Part shown: one piece after another, positions 11,540 through 33,135 of the stretch
Numbering within the stretch: the first letter of the stretch is position 1
How the letters are laid out: every line of letters begins with the position of its first letter
DNA from: Woeseiaceae bacterium
Lineage (GTDB): Bacteria; Pseudomonadota; Gammaproteobacteria; Steroidobacterales; Woeseiaceae
Reading direction: 5' to 3'
DNA length: 64,000 nt
Assembly: GCA_030066625.1 (NCBI GenBank)
Contig: JASJBG010000003.1
Coordinates: 1-64,000, forward strand
Notes under the pieces: model-generated
The model's input: only the letters and a program-made list of their open reading frames with translations
Database searches by the model: none
Told to the model about the DNA's origin: nothing
Made by a program: the position numbers and the translations under genes

Positions 11540-11782
11540 GAGTCCCTTCACGTTTCCCCCTTTTTTGTTGTCATTGTCTACGCGACGGTAATTTAACAGA
11601 AGCGCCCGCAGACCACCGCATTTTGGGGTGCAAGCGCGCCAAACCATGGTATCCTTGCGGCCAGCCAAAGGGTCTGAAGTTCTCGGCCAAAGCGACTGTT
11701 TCTTCTGGCAAATTCGCGGTCGTTTCGGCAAATCCGATCCACCGGCGGTTTGATGCTTGTGCAATTCCCAAGGGGGGGAGAC

Positions 11783-14368
11783 ATGGTCGCTAATTCTTCG
11801 CTCATCCGTGCCCGGATGAATCGTTTCCTGTGCGCACTCGGTGCTATTGCCGCGGCGCTGTCGGTGTCCTCGACTGCCAATGCGCAGGAAGAGAACGTCG
11901 TGCTCGAGGAAATCATCGTCGTATCGCAGAAACGCGAGCAGACGCTGCAGTCGCTGCCCGTCGCGGTATCGGTCGTTTCGTCCGCCACGCTCGACGAGGC
12001 GCAGATACTGGACGTCAAGGACCTGCAGTCGCTGGTACCGAGCCTCAGAATCAGCCAGCTGCAGACCAGCGCCAACACGAACTTCCTGATTCGCGGTTTC
12101 GGTAACGGCGCCAACAACGCCGGCATCGAGCCGTCGGTCGGCGTCTTCATCGACGGCGTTTACCGCTCGCGGTCCGCGTCCGCCCTCGCCGACTTCCCGA
12201 ACCTCGAGCGCATCGAGGTCATCAAGGGCCCGCAGAGCACGCTGTTCGGCAAGAACGCGTCGGCGGGCGTCATCAACGTCATCACGGAAAAGCCGAGTCT
12301 CGACAGCGTGTCGGGCTCCGTGTCGGTGACGGCGGGTGAGTACAGCCAGATCATCCTGAAAGGCGACGTCAACGGTCCGCTGAGCGACACGTTCGCTGTA
12401 TCGGTGTCGGGCAGCTACAACGAGCGTGACGGCTACTACGACAACCTCGAGACCGGCAACTCGCTCAACGAACTCAATCGCCAGGGCGTGCGCGGCCAGG
12501 CGCTGTGGGTACCGAACGAGACCTTCGAGGCGCGGCTCATCGCCGACTGGGACAAGCTCGACGAGGCCTGCTGCGGTGTCGCCAACCTTCAGAATGGCCC
12601 CACCGGCGCGGCGATCGCGCTCGTTGGCGGCCAGCTGGTGCCGAACGCGCCGTTTGCCTACGAGGGCTTCTACGACTTCGACCCGAACAACGAGATCGAA
12701 AACTCGGGCGTATCGCTGCAGCTCGACTGGGATCTCAACGAGAGCGTGACGCTGACGTCGATCACGGCGTTCCGCAGCCAGGAGCGCTTCGACAACGCCG
12801 ACGTCGACTTCACGAGTGCCGCGCTGATCAGCGACCAGACCGGCAACCTGACCGACACCAACATTGATACGTTTACGCAGGAACTGCGCCTCACTGGATC
12901 GGCCGAAAACTTCGACTGGGTCCTTGGCGGCTTCTTCTTTGACGAAGACGTCGACCAGAACAGCGGCATCATCTATGGCGACGCGTTCCGCCCGTACGCC
13001 GACATTCTCGCCATCCTGGGCGGTGGCGGCACACCGGGCATCGACCCGTCGCCTCTGTCGGTGCTCGAGGCTGGCCTCGGCCTTCCGGGCGGCACGTTTT
13101 TCGCCTCGGGTCAGGGCAACACCGAGGTCGCGACGCTGACCAACGACGCCTACTCGATCTTCGGCCAGGTCGACTTCGATCTCGGCGAGCGCACCACGAT
13201 TACGCTCGGCATCAACTACACGAACGACGAGAAGGATACGAGCGTCAACATCGCCGGCACGGACGTATTCTCGGCCGTCGATATGGTGTCCACCGGGTTC
13301 GGCCTCGCATTCCAGACCGCAACCGGTCTGCCGCCGACACCCGAGAACATCGCCAACGTCGGCATGATGAACCCGGGGCTCATCGCGCAGCTGCAGACGC
13401 TCAGCATGACGGAGTGCTCGGCGACCGCGCCGCCGCCGAACTGTAACCAGCTGCTCGCCCTGCAGCCGCTGCAGTTCCTGCCGCCGTTCGTCAACTACCC
13501 GAACTCGGTCGAGTCCGGCTCATCGTCGGATTCGCAGACGACGTGGACAGCGCGCATCGCGTTCGACGTGAACGATGACGTCAACATCTATGCAAGCGCC
13601 GGTACCGGCTTCAAGGCCACGTCCTGGAACCTGTCGCGTGACTCGCGGCCATTCGCAAGCGACATTGCGGCGCTCGAAGCTGCGGGCCTCTCGGTCAACA
13701 ACCTGGTCGCCGGCACGCGCAACGCGGGTCCCGAGGAATCGCAGCTGCTGGAGTTCGGCCTGAAGGGCCAGTGGGATAACTTCATCCTCAATGCCGCGAT
13801 CTTCGACCAGGAAATCGAAGGCTTCCAGTCGAACCTGTTCCTCGGCACGGGCTTCGCACTCGCCAACGCCGGCAAGCAGTCGACGACCGGCATCGAGGTC
13901 GACTTCCTGTGGCAGCCGATTCCGGACCTGCAGTTCAACTTCGCCAGCATGTTCCTGGATCCCGAGTACGACTCGTTCCCGGCGGGTAACGGCGTCGGCG
14001 GTCCGGCAGACCTGACCGGCCGGGCGCCGGCCGGCATCTCGGAAACCAGCATCACGACGTCGGCCCGCTACGCGTTCAACCTGCTGGGCGGCGACGCGTT
14101 CGTCCGTGCCGAGTACTGGTACGAGAGCGACGTACAGGTCAACGACAACGTTCCGGAGTCGGTTGCTTCACGTGAAGTCGGCACGATCAACGCCAGCGCC
14201 GGCGTCCAGTGGGACAACGGCTTCCAGGCAACGATCTGGGGTCGCAACATCAACGACGACAACTGGCTGCAGAGCTCGTTCCCGTCGGTCGCGCAGGCAG
14301 GCAGCTTCTCGGGCTACCCGAACACGCCGCGCACCTGGGGCGTGACGCTCAGGTACTTCTTCGACTAA
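11783..14368 (+). CDS. TonB-dependent receptor
   Basis: Signal peptide; EEIIVVSQKREQTLQSLPVAVSVVSSATL plug; C-terminal NTPRTWGVTLRYFFD; SD AAGGGGGGGAG before ATG. Confidence 0.94.
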   Translation: MVANSSLIRARMNRFLCALGAIAAALSVSSTANAQEENVVLEEIIVVSQKREQTLQSLPVAVSVVSSATLDEAQILDVKDLQSLVPSLRISQLQTSANTNFLIRGFGNGANNAGIEPSVGVFIDGVYRSRSASALADFPNLERIEVIKGPQSTLFGKNASAGVINVITEKPSLDSVSGSVSVTAGEYSQIILKGDVNGPLSDTFAVSVSGSYNERDGYYDNLETGNSLNELNRQGVRGQALWVPNETFEARLIADWDKLDEACCGVANLQNGPTGAAIALVGGQLVPNAPFAYEGFYDFDPNNEIENSGVSLQLDWDLNESVTLTSITAFRSQERFDNADVDFTSAALISDQTGNLTDTNIDTFTQELRLTGSAENFDWVLGGFFFDEDVDQNSGIIYGDAFRPYADILAILGGGGTPGIDPSPLSVLEAGLGLPGGTFFASGQGNTEVATLTNDAYSIFGQVDFDLGERTTITLGINYTNDEKDTSVNIAGTDVFSAVDMVSTGFGLAFQTATGLPPTPENIANVGMMNPGLIAQLQTLSMTECSATAPPPNCNQLLALQPLQFLPPFVNYPNSVESGSSSDSQTTWTARIAFDVNDDVNIYASAGTGFKATSWNLSRDSRPFASDIAALEAAGLSVNNLVAGTRNAGPEESQLLEFGLKGQWDNFILNAAIFDQEIEGFQSNLFLGTGFALANAGKQSTTGIEVDFLWQPIPDLQFNFASMFLDPEYDSFPAGNGVGGPADLTGRAPAGISETSITTSARYAFNLLGGDAFVRAEYWYESDVQVNDNVPESVASREVGTINASAGVQWDNGFQATIWGRNINDDNWLQSSFPSVAQAGSFSGYPNTPRTWGVTLRYFFD

Positions 14369-27398: not shown

Positions 27399-29321
27399 TT
27401 GACGCAAATGCCGAACATCACGCTACCCGACGGATCCGTCCGCGAATACGACGCCGCGACCAGCGGCGCGGAGATTGCCGAGAGCATTGGCAAGGGGCTC
27501 GCCAAGAGCGCCGTTGCTGTGCGCGTTGACGGTGAGCTCTGGGACCTCACGCGTGATATCGACGCCGACGCCGCCATCGAGATCGTCACCCGCGACTCCG
27601 ACGACGGCCTCGAACTGCTGCGCCACGATGCGGCACACGTGCTCGCCGAGGCGGTCAAGGAGATCTGGCCCGAGACACAGGTGACGATCGGCCCGGCAAT
27701 CGAGAACGGCTTCTACTATGACTTTTCGCGCGAGGAGCCGTTTACCGAGGATGACCTCGAGACCATCGAAGCGCGCATGAAAGACATCGTCGATCGTAAC
27801 GAGACGATCGTGCGCGAGGTCTGGGACCGCGACGAGGCGGTCAAGTTCTTCCGATCCATCGGCGAGGAGTACAAGGCCGAGATCATAGCGGCGATCCCGA
27901 GCGACGAGCCGATCACGCTGTACCGACAGGGCGAGTTCATCGACCTGTGCCGCGGCCCGCACCTGCCGGCGACCGGTAAGCTCGGCAAGTCGTTCAAGCT
28001 GACGCATGTCTCCGGCGCGTACTGGCGCGGCGACTCGGCCAACGAGATGCTGCAACGCGTCTACGGTACCGCGTGGGCGAACGACAAGCAGCTCCGCCAG
28101 TACCTGCACATGCTCGAGGAAGCCGAAAAGCGCGACCACCGCCGCCTCGGCCGCATCATGGACCTGTTCCACTTCCAGGAAGAAGCCCCCGGCGCCGTCT
28201 TCTGGCACCCGAAAGGCTGGGCGCTGTTTCAGACGCTGATCGCGTTCATGCGCGAGCAGCAAAACGCCGCTGGCTATCGCGAGATCAACACGCCCGAGCT
28301 CGTCGATCGCTCGCTGTGGGAGGCGTCCGGCCACTGGGACTCGTTCGGCGACAACATGTTCACGTCCGAGACCGTCGACGGCCGCCACTACGCGATCAAG
28401 CCGATGAACTGTCCCGGTCACGTGCAGGTCTTCAAGCAGGGCATCACGAGTTATCGCGACCTGCCCGTCCGGCTTGCCGAGTTCGGCAAGTGCCATCGCT
28501 ACGAGCCGTCGGGCGCGCTGCACGGCATGATGCGCGTGCGTGCGTTCACGCAGGACGATGCACATGTCTTCTGCACGCCGGAACAGATCACTGACGAATC
28601 GATCGCGGTTTGCAACCTGATTCTGAATATCTACCGCAGCTTCGGCTTCGAAGACGTTCGCATCAAGTTCGCCGACCGACCGGAAGTCCGGGTCGGCGAG
28701 GACGCGGTGTGGGACCAGGCCGAGAGTGCGCTCTTGAAAGCGCTCGAGGTCGCCGGCCTCGAGTACACGCACAATCCGGGCGAAGGCGCGTTCTACGGAC
28801 CGAAGCTCGAGTTCGTCCTGCGCGATGCCATCGGCCGTGACTGGCAGTGCGGCACGCTGCAGGTCGACCTGAACATGCCGGGACGACTTGGCGCGACCTA
28901 CATCGGCGAAGACGGCGAAAAGCACCTGCCGGTCATGCTGCACCGGGCGATCTTCGGCTCGCTCGAGCGCTTCATCGGCATCCTGATCGAACACCACGCC
29001 GGCAACCTGCCGCTGTGGCTCGCACCCGTGCAGGTCAAGGTCCTGACGATTACCTCCGAGGCGGACGGATTCGCCCACGAAGTCGTAGAAACTTTGCGTG
29101 CAGCAGGGCTGCGCGCCGAAGCGGATCTTCGCAACGAGAAAATTTCCTACAAGGTCCGCGAACACTCGGTCGCGAAGGTACCCGTGCTGCTCGCAATCGG
29201 CGGGCGCGAAGTCGAGATGAAGAGCGTGGCGGTGCGCCGCCTCGGCTCGAAGGAACAGCGCGTCGTCAGCCTCGACGACGCGGTCGAAACGCTGGTTGCC
29301 GAAGTAACGAATCGAGCCTGA
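27399..29321 (+). CDS. thrS: Threonyl-tRNA synthetase
   Basis: [27 protein letters not shown] (TGS); [21 protein letters not shown]; alternative ATG at 27408. Confidence 0.97.
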
Positions 29322-29491: not shown

Positions 29492-32386
29492 GTGGCGTTT
29501 GACCAAGTCAAGACACAGGTATTGCTACTGCATAGCGAGCAGACCACGCTGGACAACCTGAGTGCCAGCATCGACGATCGCTATACGGTGCACCACGCCA
29601 CGAGCGGTATCGAGGCGTTGAATACCCTGGGCGCCACGCCGATTCACGTCATCATTTCCGCCAAAGACCTCCCGGGTATGAGCGGTGTCGACGCGCTCCG
29701 CGAAGCGAAAAAGCGTTCGCCCGAAACGATCGGGATCCTGCTCGCCAACAACGACGACGATGATGTCGAAGCACTGGTCGGCGAGAAGGAAGTTTTCCAG
29801 ATCGTCCGCGGTCTGGCGCCCGAAGACCTGGGATCGATCATCGATAACGCGACCCAGCAGATGCGCCTGCTGGCGCTAGCCGAATCAGCCAACGACACGG
29901 CGGCGAATCCCGACGAACCGGTCACCGAACACATCATTATGGAGACGGCCGAGAACGGCTCGACCATCATCAGTGACGGCACCGGGACGGTGCCTATACT
30001 CGACCCCAAGAAAATATCCTCGGCAGTTGCGGCAGGCTCCAACGCCGTCGACGTACTGGTCCTGACCAAGGACGAGGAATTCCTGACGACGGTCAAGGAC
30101 TCGTCGCGCGGCATGCACAACGTTCGCTACGCCAGCACGCTGGCACAGGCCGAGGAAGCCCTCGCCAAGCACACGGTCGGTGTCGCCGTCGTTGATGCGG
30201 CCATGGTCGGCCCGAACGTTGAAAAACTGACGCAGCACCTTCGTCACAAGTCCGATCGCCTGGTCAACATCGTGGCCGGCCGTCGCGACGACGGCGAGAT
30301 GCTGATGGACCTGATCAACCGCGGCAAGGTCTACCGCTTCCTGCTGAAGCCGGTATCGCCGGGCCGCGCGCGACTCGCCATCGAAGCCTCGGTCAAGCAT
30401 CACCTCGAGGCACCCGACTCGGCGTTCAAGGTGACTGGCGAGGCACCGCAAACGCAGCCACGACCCAAGCCCAAGCCGGTTCCCGCTGCAGAAGCACCGA
30501 AACCCCAGCCAAAGCCCAAACCGAAGGCAGAAGCGAAACCCAAGCCAAAGCCGAAGCCGAAGCCGAAGCCAAAGGCAGCAGCCAAAGCCAAGCCGAAACC
30601 CGCGGCCAAGCCGAAGCCCACGCCGAAGCCGAAGCAGGAACCGCAGATCGAGATCGTGCCGTCGGCGACGGACGACCGCCTGTCCGGCGCGTTCGATGGG
30701 GACGACTCGAGCTTCACCGAGACGATGACCGGCATTGTCGCGAAAGTCGGCAAGAGCCTCTCATCGAAACCGGAGGAGCCCAGGACGGCGCCGGAAATCC
30801 CGTCGGCACTGTCGATCGACAGCGAAGGCGAAGGCTCACCGTTCCTGAACCCGAAAGTGCTGGGCATTGCGGCGGCCGTGGTCATCGTCGCAGTCCTCGG
30901 CATATTCATGTTTACGGGCTCCGACGAACCCGCCGAGCAGCCGGTAGCGCAGCAGCCCGCTGCCGATGGCGAGGCTGTCGACGCCCGATCGGAACAGCCA
31001 CGCCCGGCACCGGCGCCTCGCTCGGCCAACCTGCTGCAGTCCGCCCGTGACGCACGGACGTCCGGCCGTCTGTTCAGCCCGGCCGGCAACAACGCGCTCG
31101 AACTCTATGCAGCGGCGCTTGCGGCAGAGCCAGGCAACACCACGATCGCCGCGGAACTCGACCAGACCATCGCCGAAGCACTGACGATGACTGAGGCGGC
31201 ATTGCTCGACCGCCGGACCTCGCAGGCCGCTACGGCACTCAATCGCATCGCGCTGGCGCAGCCCGACAACGCGCGCCTGCCGTTCCTCCGGGCACAGCTT
31301 GCGCAGATCCAGCTGCGCGACTACCTGGACGGCGCCCGCGCAGCCATTCGGGACGGCCGTCTCGAGGACGCGGCAAACGCCATTGCTTCGGCGAACTCGC
31401 TAAACGTCAGCGATCCTTCGGAAATCGACGCCGTGAGCGCGGAACTCGCGGCGGCAAGAAGCGAGCAGCGCGTCGACGACGTGCTCGCTCGTGCGGCTAG
31501 CCGTTTCGACAGCGGCGCGCTAATCGAGCCCGCGAACGACAACGCGCGTTATTACTACGAGCTCGTGCTGAGCAGTGATCCGAACAACCCGGCGGCGCAA
31601 CAGGGCCTCAAGGCGATCGCCGGTATGCTGGTACTACAGGCCCGCACGGAGATAGATGGTGGTCGCTTCGACAGCGCGCAGGCGCTGCTCGACGACGCGC
31701 GGGCGCTCGACCCCGGCAGCAGCGAGCTCGACGCCTCGTCGCGCGCGCTCGCCGACGCACGCCAGCGCGTCGTTGACGACCAGGCGCGACAGGAACAGGC
31801 AAGGCAGACGCAGGCTCGCCAGCAGGCTGCCGATCGTGCCGACGCCGAAGCCGATCGCATTGCCGAACTGCAGCGTCAGGAAGACCGACGCCAGGCCGAA
31901 GCTGCGGCTGCACTCGCGGCTGCAGCGGCGGCGAACAATGCTTCTGCAGCAGGTACGACCGGCACGGTTCCGGCCGATACCGGTGATTCACAGGCGGCAG
32001 CCGGGACGACGGGCCAGGCTGCGGTCACGCCGGCGCCAACGCCGACGCCGACGCCGCAGGCGGCGACCATGACGACACCGCCGCCGCAGGCCGCGGTCGA
32101 CACCACGCCGGTACCGATCAGCTCACTGACTCGAACCCGCTACGTTGCACCGAAATACCCGCGTTCGGCCGAGCGCCGCAACCTGTCGGGCTGGGTCGAC
32201 GTCGTGTTCACCGTGACGCTCGATGGCACGACCGCCGGCATCGAGGTTCGCGATTCCGATCCCGGTGACACCTTCGTCAATGCCGCAATCAAGGCGGTCG
32301 AGAGGTGGGAATTCGAGCCGGTGTTCGAGAACGGTGTCGCGGTCGAGAAGCGCGCAGGCGTGCGCCTGATGTTTGCGCTCGAGTAG
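29492..32386 (+). CDS. Hybrid protein: two degenerate receiver domains, Lys-Pro repeat, TM helix, repeat region, TonB C-terminal domain
   Basis: 964 aa; REC-like ~29510-29870 and ~30044-30406; KPKPKPK region ~30458-30646; TM KVLGIAAAVVIVAVLGIFMF; C-terminal RYVAPKYPRSAERRNLSGWVDVVFTVTLDG..WEFEPV (TonB_C). Confidence 0.85.
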   Translation: MAFDQVKTQVLLLHSEQTTLDNLSASIDDRYTVHHATSGIEALNTLGATPIHVIISAKDLPGMSGVDALREAKKRSPETIGILLANNDDDDVEALVGEKEVFQIVRGLAPEDLGSIIDNATQQMRLLALAESANDTAANPDEPVTEHIIMETAENGSTIISDGTGTVPILDPKKISSAVAAGSNAVDVLVLTKDEEFLTTVKDSSRGMHNVRYASTLAQAEEALAKHTVGVAVVDAAMVGPNVEKLTQHLRHKSDRLVNIVAGRRDDGEMLMDLINRGKVYRFLLKPVSPGRARLAIEASVKHHLEAPDSAFKVTGEAPQTQPRPKPKPVPAAEAPKPQPKPKPKAEAKPKPKPKPKPKPKAAAKAKPKPAAKPKPTPKPKQEPQIEIVPSATDDRLSGAFDGDDSSFTETMTGIVAKVGKSLSSKPEEPRTAPEIPSALSIDSEGEGSPFLNPKVLGIAAAVVIVAVLGIFMFTGSDEPAEQPVAQQPAADGEAVDARSEQPRPAPAPRSANLLQSARDARTSGRLFSPAGNNALELYAAALAAEPGNTTIAAELDQTIAEALTMTEAALLDRRTSQAATALNRIALAQPDNARLPFLRAQLAQIQLRDYLDGARAAIRDGRLEDAANAIASANSLNVSDPSEIDAVSAELAAARSEQRVDDVLARAASRFDSGALIEPANDNARYYYELVLSSDPNNPAAQQGLKAIAGMLVLQARTEIDGGRFDSAQALLDDARALDPGSSELDASSRALADARQRVVDDQARQEQARQTQARQQAADRADAEADRIAELQRQEDRRQAEAAAALAAAAAANNASAAGTTGTVPADTGDSQAAAGTTGQAAVTPAPTPTPTPQAATMTTPPPQAAVDTTPVPISSLTRTRYVAPKYPRSAERRNLSGWVDVVFTVTLDGTTAGIEVRDSDPGDTFVNAAIKAVERWEFEPVFENGVAVEKRAGVRLMFALE

Positions 32387-32472
32387 CCCGACCCCGCTTA
32401 ATCCTTCCGATCTGGACAAATTCATACCGTAACGCTACCCTTTCGACTCGCTTTGGGTCAGGGGAAGTGCAC

Positions 32473-33135
32473 GTGTCGGAAGCAGTTGCGGCCACCGAGG
32501 CCGAGAAACCCGCGCGCAAGCAGCAGCAGCGCAGCCTGGTAACGCAGCACAAGCTGCTCGACGCCGCGACCGAGGCGTTTTCCGAGAACGGTTTCAAGGG
32601 CACCTCGACCCGCGATATCGCGGAGCGTGCCGGCGTCCACCACCCGCTGATCACCTACCACTTCAAGAACAAGGACCAGCTCTGGCGGGCCGCGACCGAC
32701 CGTATCTTTCGCGAGTTCAACATCTCGCTGGTCAAGGCGATGGCCGAAGTCTCGGAGGCCGACCCGCGCGCCCGCGCCGAAGCCTTCGTGCGGACTTACG
32801 TGCGCTATGCCTACCAGCGCCCTGCCCTGCACAAGATCATCCTGCAGGAGTCGTCGAAACCGAGCGACCGGCTGGACTGGCTCGTCGAAAACCACCTGCG
32901 GCCGCTGTTCGACGAGGTCGTCAAATCGCTGAAGGTTCTGCAGGAAATGGGCATCGCGCCGGCGGGCAACCCGGCGCTGCTATTCAACATGATCCGTGTC
33001 TCGGCTGGCGGCCTGCTCGCGCTGTCGCTCGAGATCAAGGGCACCAGCGATATCGATTTCGACGATGAAGGCGAACTCGACAAGCTCGCCGACATGATCA
33101 TCCGCGTCTTCTTCCCGAGCAGCGCCGGCGACTAG
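32473..33135 (+). CDS. TetR family transcriptional regulator
   Basis: LLDAATEAFSENGFKGTSTRDIAERAGVHHPLITYHFKNKDQLW; GTG start after GGGGAA SD. Confidence 0.92.
   Translation: MSEAVAATEAEKPARKQQQRSLVTQHKLLDAATEAFSENGFKGTSTRDIAERAGVHHPLITYHFKNKDQLWRAATDRIFREFNISLVKAMAEVSEADPRARAEAFVRTYVRYAYQRPALHKIILQESSKPSDRLDWLVENHLRPLFDEVVKSLKVLQEMGIAPAGNPALLFNMIRVSAGGLLALSLEIKGTSDIDFDDEGELDKLADMIIRVFFPSSAGD

Follow-up and report, generated by a model that had tools for sequence, protein, structure and literature searches.

A Woeseiaceae protein that joins two pseudo-receivers to a TonB-like C-terminal arm, and its split two-component counterpart

The output end of a response regulator is normally a cytoplasmic domain with a DNA-binding, enzymatic or binding role, and TonB proteins are best known for their part as energised arms in transport. 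A single gene in the stretch of DNA analysed here, from a marine bacterium of the Woeseiaceae (64,000 nucleotides, hereafter the window), encodes a protein that begins with two receiver-like domains and ends in a TonB-like domain. What might such a protein control, and does it still respond to phosphorylation? An initial annotation of this DNA, made from the letters alone, described the product as a double pseudo-receiver with a KP-repeat tract, a transmembrane (TM) helix and a TonB_C-like end. On re-reading the sequence, the open reading frame, its coordinates and all of the motifs quoted in that annotation proved to be correct. A search of the open-licence literature for a published receiver-TonB fusion found nothing relevant, and the main texts of PMC12632262 and PMC4395418 mention no TonB output for pseudo-receivers.

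Table 1. Features of the fused gene and its conserved neighbors, in window coordinates.
Feature	Position	Strand	Basis or remarks
Fused gene: pseudo-REC1, pseudo-REC2, Lys/Pro linker, TM, TPR rod, long helix, P/T linker, TonB_C	29492..32386	+	964 aa, GTG start
REC1, aa 8-133, receiver fold	29513..29890	+	Alignment, AlphaFold2, Foldseek
Inter-receiver segment, conserved, aa 134-183; model confidence low	29891..30040	+	Top-residue frequency mean 0.77
REC2, aa 187-306	30050..30409	+	Alignment, AlphaFold2
Pro/Lys/Ala linker including (KP)n, disordered, predicted cytoplasmic, aa 317-455	30440..30856	+	AlphaFold2, orthologue comparison
TM helix, single, aa 455-474; no His, no SxxxH motif	30854..30913	+	AlphaFold2, TM prediction
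TPR-type helical domain, predicted periplasmic, aa 511-740	31022..31711	+	Pfam, AlphaFold2, BamD-like TPR Foldseek match
Long single helix, aa 744-814, 71 residues, about 10.6 nm	31721..31933	+	AlphaFold2
Disordered linker with PTPTPTP, aa 816-869, 54 residues	31937..32098	+	Translation, AlphaFold2
TonB C-terminal domain, aa 875-963	32114..32380	+	Pfam, AlphaFold2, Foldseek
thrS, conserved upstream neighbor, same strand as fused gene	27399..29321	+	Locus comparison
TetR-family regulator gene, conserved downstream neighbor, ~80 bp gap	32467..33135	+	Locus comparison

Architecture, distribution and predicted topology

The receiver and TonB_C assignments are upheld by Pfam, wherein Response_reg (PF00072) matches two stretches of the protein (E=1.8e-12) and TonB_C matches its end (2.2e-15); the TPR match is weak. 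An AlphaFold2 model built from an alignment of 61 homologues gives pLDDT values around 90 or above for the folded domains, and both receivers adopt a (beta-alpha)5 fold (pLDDT ~90 and ~95). In Foldseek comparisons, the receivers match PleD at the top and many single receiver domains besides, the latter with TM-scores of 0.80-0.85 (about 0.8 on the target). The TPR part matches BamD, and the C-terminus superimposes on the P. aeruginosa TonB C-terminal domain (6i97) with a TM-score of 0.91, an rmsd of 1.0 A and 35% identity. Receiver-like folding of the N-terminal domains, which had been set beforehand as a point on which the annotation could fail, is thus borne out, as are the TonB fold and the order of single TM helix, TPR domain and long helix after the KP tract. 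We regard this domain anatomy as secure; the mechanism considered below is one that we infer.

The combination of domains is family-wide. Orthologues are present in 34 of 37 genomes of the nearest relatives and in 29 of 31 Woeseiaceae genomes from an order-wide sample, the two exceptions having reduced genomes (1.5-1.8 Mb). The named contigs that carry orthologues are mostly Woeseiaceae MAGs. Gene order is almost fixed as glnS(-) thrS(+) fused gene(+) tetR(+), with tetR next downstream in 60 of the 64 loci that have a called following gene, and the survey of architecture and neighbors proposed initially found the thrS and tetR flanks kept. In the window, glnS, thrS, tetR and metabolic genes surround the fused gene in an order shared with other loci. 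Beyond glnS, thrS and tetR no neighbor is conserved, these give no clear indication of function, and no histidine kinase lies beside the fused gene in the window or the compared loci. One orthologue (L024, G001:C30:23088-25967) carries an in-frame TGA, possibly from a sequencing error or because it is a pseudogene. The fused gene is also found in a single-contig family genome of 4.06 Mb (G274), which suggests that a cultured model organism may exist.

The Pro/Lys/Ala-rich linker is free to vary. It spans about 50-165 aa in most orthologues and includes from 0 to 17 "KP" units, and we consequently rejected the (KP)n tract, which had figured in the initial description, as a conserved or defining feature. 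At two loci (L101:4264-8295 and L089:5866-9168) the Pro/Lys linker is replaced by longer Lys/Glu-rich segments, leaving roughly 210-335 aa before the TM helix. One TM helix is predicted in 68 of 77 sequences, and several of the remainder are fragments. Among orthologues, the 30 residues flanking this helix carry a mean net charge of -0.3 on the N-terminal side and -4.6 on the C-terminal side. Because of this bias (the positive-inside rule), the Lys-rich basic linker on the N-terminal side and the lack of an N-terminal hydrophobic signal in the window protein, an N-in, C-out topology is predicted. Thus we infer, in agreement with the initial proposal, that the receivers and KP linker are cytoplasmic, and that the TPR-TonB_C portion is periplasmic. 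The further proposal that the protein spans the envelope is plausible by predicted length, given the ~10.6-nm helix of 71 residues, the TPR rod and the 54-residue linker.

Relationship to energised TonB proteins

The window protein resembles members of the TonB family (PF03544), such as the E. coli and P. aeruginosa TonB proteins, in its C-terminal fold and sequence, its single TM helix, its N-in topology and its Pro-rich linkers. Unlike TonB, whose TM helix is near the N-terminus after a short cytoplasmic stub, it has two receivers and a linker, about 450 cytoplasmic residues in all, ahead of the TM helix at 455-474. Its Lys/Pro linker is predicted to be cytoplasmic and its periplasmic part holds a TPR rod; exbBD linkage and the SxxxH motif, both features of TonB, are missing.

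Could the protein nevertheless be a true energy-transducing TonB, whose TM helix is driven by ExbB/ExbD encoded elsewhere and whose receivers only gate the choice of TonB? Consistent with this possibility are the genuine TonB_C fold, near to that of P. aeruginosa TonB, and the several ExbB-family genes found elsewhere in the genome. A relative with a single pseudo-receiver (573-575 aa; family f148, elsewhere in the class) also has its gene within a few genes of an exbBD-tonB2-type cluster and of thrS, its receiver-like part being recognised by eye and through relatives rather than by Pfam. However, a genome search placed every ExbB match on other contigs and no exb genes on that of the window, which extends the earlier remark that exbB/exbD are not nearby. 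One of these other contigs holds a separate exbB-exbB-exbD-tonB set with its own TonB, and so the window protein is not needed for ordinary TonB function. The TM helix is poorly conserved, and the S-x3-H motif occurs in none of the 68 orthologues with a predicted helix. This motif argument is weak, since the exb-linked TonB of the same genome also lacks His in its TM helix; absence of the His does not discriminate, and we rejected it as proof against ExbB coupling. An ExbB-driven TonB appears unlikely.

A TonB_C domain fused to another signalling-type domain also occurs in the proteins at L206, L207 and L209, which we take, from their motifs, to be BlaR1/M56-like. These have a multi-TM metalloprotease-type N-terminus and, unlike the window protein, lack receivers and a TPR rod. 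Some apparent class-level TonB_C matches were discarded as M56-like TonB_C or ordinary TonB proteins, and a search of plasmids for such fusions returned only ordinary receivers and TonB domains.

Pseudo-receivers and a split two-component counterpart

REC1 retains none of the five catalytic residues (D12>H14, D13>S15, D57>A57, T87>A85, K109>G107), and in an alignment of 77 sequences the corresponding columns read H, S, A, A and G with almost no exception. The initial annotation had pointed to Ala at the phospho-Asp site and to a replaced acidic pair, and alignment does not restore the Asp, as 67 of 70 orthologues have Ala at this position. In REC2 the same columns read T, K/Q/R, D, A and K, such that only the D57 and K109 positions (2 of 5) are kept. 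The window protein accordingly has D235 and K286, the candidate Asp and Lys noted earlier, along with T192-K193 in place of the acidic pair and A262 in place of Thr. The Thr column differs by one residue between two alignments, but holds Ala or Gly either way and never Thr or Ser. Pseudo-receivers (PsR) are defined by the loss of any of D, DD, T or K (PMC12632262), a class to which both receivers belong; REC1 is also Asp-less (ALR).

These losses are accompanied by strong conservation. The mean top-residue frequency among orthologues is 0.82 for REC1 and 0.84 for REC2, compared with 0.75 for TonB_C and 0.68 for the TPR domain, making the receivers the best conserved domains of the protein. Within REC2, alpha4, beta5 and alpha5 reach 0.98, 0.99 and 0.95, whereas alpha1, beta2, alpha2 and alpha3 range from 0.63 to 0.74. 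The alpha4-beta5-alpha5 face, a surface that mediates dimerisation and partner contacts in response regulators generally (see PMC12632262), is conserved more strongly than any other part of the protein. Since the catalytic replacements are invariant in about 70 orthologues and the receivers are the best conserved domains, these are maintained pseudo-receivers rather than products of decay. The loss of every REC1 catalytic residue might be expected of a functionless, decaying relic of a two-component paralogue, but the frame is open, and synteny and residues are kept throughout the family, which makes such a relic scarcely credible.

The initial annotation also proposed phosphorylation-independent control. 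For REC1, phosphorylation independence is well supported by the residues present; for REC2, which has the invariant D235 and K286, it is likely. If these two residues, together with the acidic D194 that is invariant in the 61-sequence alignment, allowed REC2 to be phosphorylated by a noncanonical route, then control would be by phosphorylation after all. This seems quite improbable, because the acidic pair and Thr are replaced invariantly, and because among 10 single-receiver relatives D57 is Asn in three and the Lys is lost in seven (kept in three).

Receiver folds without catalytic residues are also seen in FrzS, NblR, ChxR and the ShkA REC1 domain, and the documented examples bind proteins (FrzS) or c-di-GMP (ShkA) (PMC12632262, PMC7010744). 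The Caulobacter ShkA REC1 precedent (PMC7010744), with ShkA among the Foldseek matches, raises the idea that the window pseudo-receivers sense a ligand such as a cyclic dinucleotide. We consider this improbable, as the resemblance to ShkA is one generic to receivers.

A counterpart with intact phosphorylation chemistry is present in the same genome. On contig C132 (L008:6218-10833), three abutting genes encode a histidine kinase (HisKA and HATPase_c domains), a soluble response regulator with a Pro-rich linker between its two receivers, and a TM-TPR-TonB_C protein. This triplet is colinear at 16 loci, which belong to Woeseiaceae and to three further families in the order, and no other conserved genes surround it among 15 loci compared. 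Its REC1 carries the full DD, D, T and K set in all 16, and its REC2 keeps D and K and lacks the acidic pair. Like PleD-type regulators, these proteins have tandem receivers, and the split regulator follows PleD in pairing a canonical first receiver with a degenerate second (PMC12632262). Unlike PleD, the output is a membrane TM-TPR-TonB_C arm in place of a C-terminal GGDEF, and both of the fused receivers are degenerate.

In a receiver tree, to which its long branches lend moderate weight, the fused REC1 joins the operon REC1 (99/99) and the fused REC2 falls with its operon equivalent and with most single receivers. The split response regulator and its TonB_C neighbor have in the window gene a fused counterpart that lacks the phosphorylation site. 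Gene-fusion logic predicts that, in the split system, the regulator works together with the TonB_C protein. A TonB_C tree lacked the strength to give the direction, fusion or fission. The earlier reading of the single open reading frame was largely right, but it missed the three-gene HK-RR-TonB_C system of which this protein is the fused form.

The shared receiver ancestry with two-component systems, the strongly conserved REC2 interaction face and the conserved tetR neighbor would also suit signalling from the outside in, wherein the TPR/TonB_C portion senses the state of the outer membrane or peptidoglycan and a partner in the cytoplasm, such as the RR/HK of the split paralogue or TetR, is recruited by the receivers. 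We judge this unlikely. The split operon was found in about 11 of the 37 nearest genomes and the fused protein in 34, so that its RR/HK is not a general partner, and the link to TetR is one of adjacency only.

Signalling relatives and a possible route to the outer membrane

The same TM-TPR-TonB_C chassis carries other N-terminal domains. Other families of the order encode 600-680 aa proteins with one pseudo-receiver, a TM helix, TPR and TonB_C. A model of the one at L111 includes both the receiver and TonB_C folds, and L210 too has a single pseudo-receiver on this chassis. Genes for single-receiver proteins sit in differing places, for example behind rpoD in family f9, and their neighbors offer no clue to function. 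A variant of the single-pseudo-receiver protein without TonB_C occurs in family f8; the products of L132:5957-7696 and L134:9330-11078 consist of a pseudo-receiver (D57 to Asn), a TM helix and TPR, and lack TonB_C. In another family of the class, a single-pseudo-receiver TonB_C gene (L237:7725-9443, L238:9100-10818, L239:12133-13857) lies between a thrS-pyrC group and gap/pgi with an exbB-exbD-tonB2/TPR cluster. A Ser/Thr kinase on the same plan is encoded at L136:5579-8128 (Pkinase 8.3e-38, TonB_C 6.7e-13; Pfam), and TPR-TonB_C proteins with long N-termini at L137:1475-3955 and L138:6568-8901. The receiver, single pseudo-receiver and Ser/Thr kinase versions indicate that different cytoplasmic signalling domains have been placed on one periplasmic output arm.

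The best explanation, to which we give even confidence, is that the window protein crosses the inner membrane once and serves as a signalling adaptor between control in the cytoplasm and the outer membrane. Its cytoplasmic pseudo-receivers would offer a platform for docking or dimerisation, by way of the invariant alpha4-beta5-alpha5 face of REC2, and where the protein sits or clusters would depend on a partner or on the oligomeric state, and not on Asp phosphorylation. The arm of TPR domain and helix in the periplasm may then present TonB_C to an outer-membrane partner with a TonB box, which could be a TonB-dependent receptor or a beta-barrel. For the split paralogue, we would expect the histidine kinase to control the same arm through phosphorylation of the canonical REC1. 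The genome encodes 31 TonB-receptor plug domains, one of which is in the window at 11750-14365; the TonB-dependent receptor there (plug and barrel, 11750-14368) is on the same contig, about 15 kb upstream of the fused gene.

The overall working may resemble that of GltG/GltJ (AgmX) of the Myxococcus gliding machine. GltG is an FHA...TonB protein (PMC3169522), and GltG/GltJ have a single TM helix, a periplasmic helical domain and TonB_C (PMC5349195). The likeness lies in the modular plan, in which a cytoplasmic signalling or interaction domain precedes these parts. GltG has FHA where the window protein has receivers, and the genes around the window gene and in the compared loci (glnS, thrS, tetR and metabolic genes) include no Glt/Agl genes. 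The case of SjdR in Anabaena, a former TonB assignment, shows that such a protein can have a role in the structure of the envelope and not in transport (PMC8262864).

A bolder reading, which we offer tentatively and lean somewhat against, is that this lineage has two-component systems with a mechanical, non-transcriptional output, in which a histidine kinase and tandem-receiver regulator act on a periplasm-spanning TonB_C arm. The window protein would then be a fused, kinase-independent version with pseudo-receivers in control. If true, signals would have a direct route from the cytoplasm to the outer membrane.

Receivers that are fused or operon-linked to a TonB arm constitute a defined, testable case of such signalling. 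The family supplies natural matched pairs, wherein an active (DD/D/T/K) and a silenced receiver share the same output, and these pairs bear on the question of how pseudo-receivers exert control (PMC12632262). The window protein is one member of a signalling family that shares the TonB_C arm and has an intact two-component operon as its sister, a relationship visible only beyond the single open reading frame. This sister split version suggests that bacteria wire two-component signalling directly to the outer membrane.
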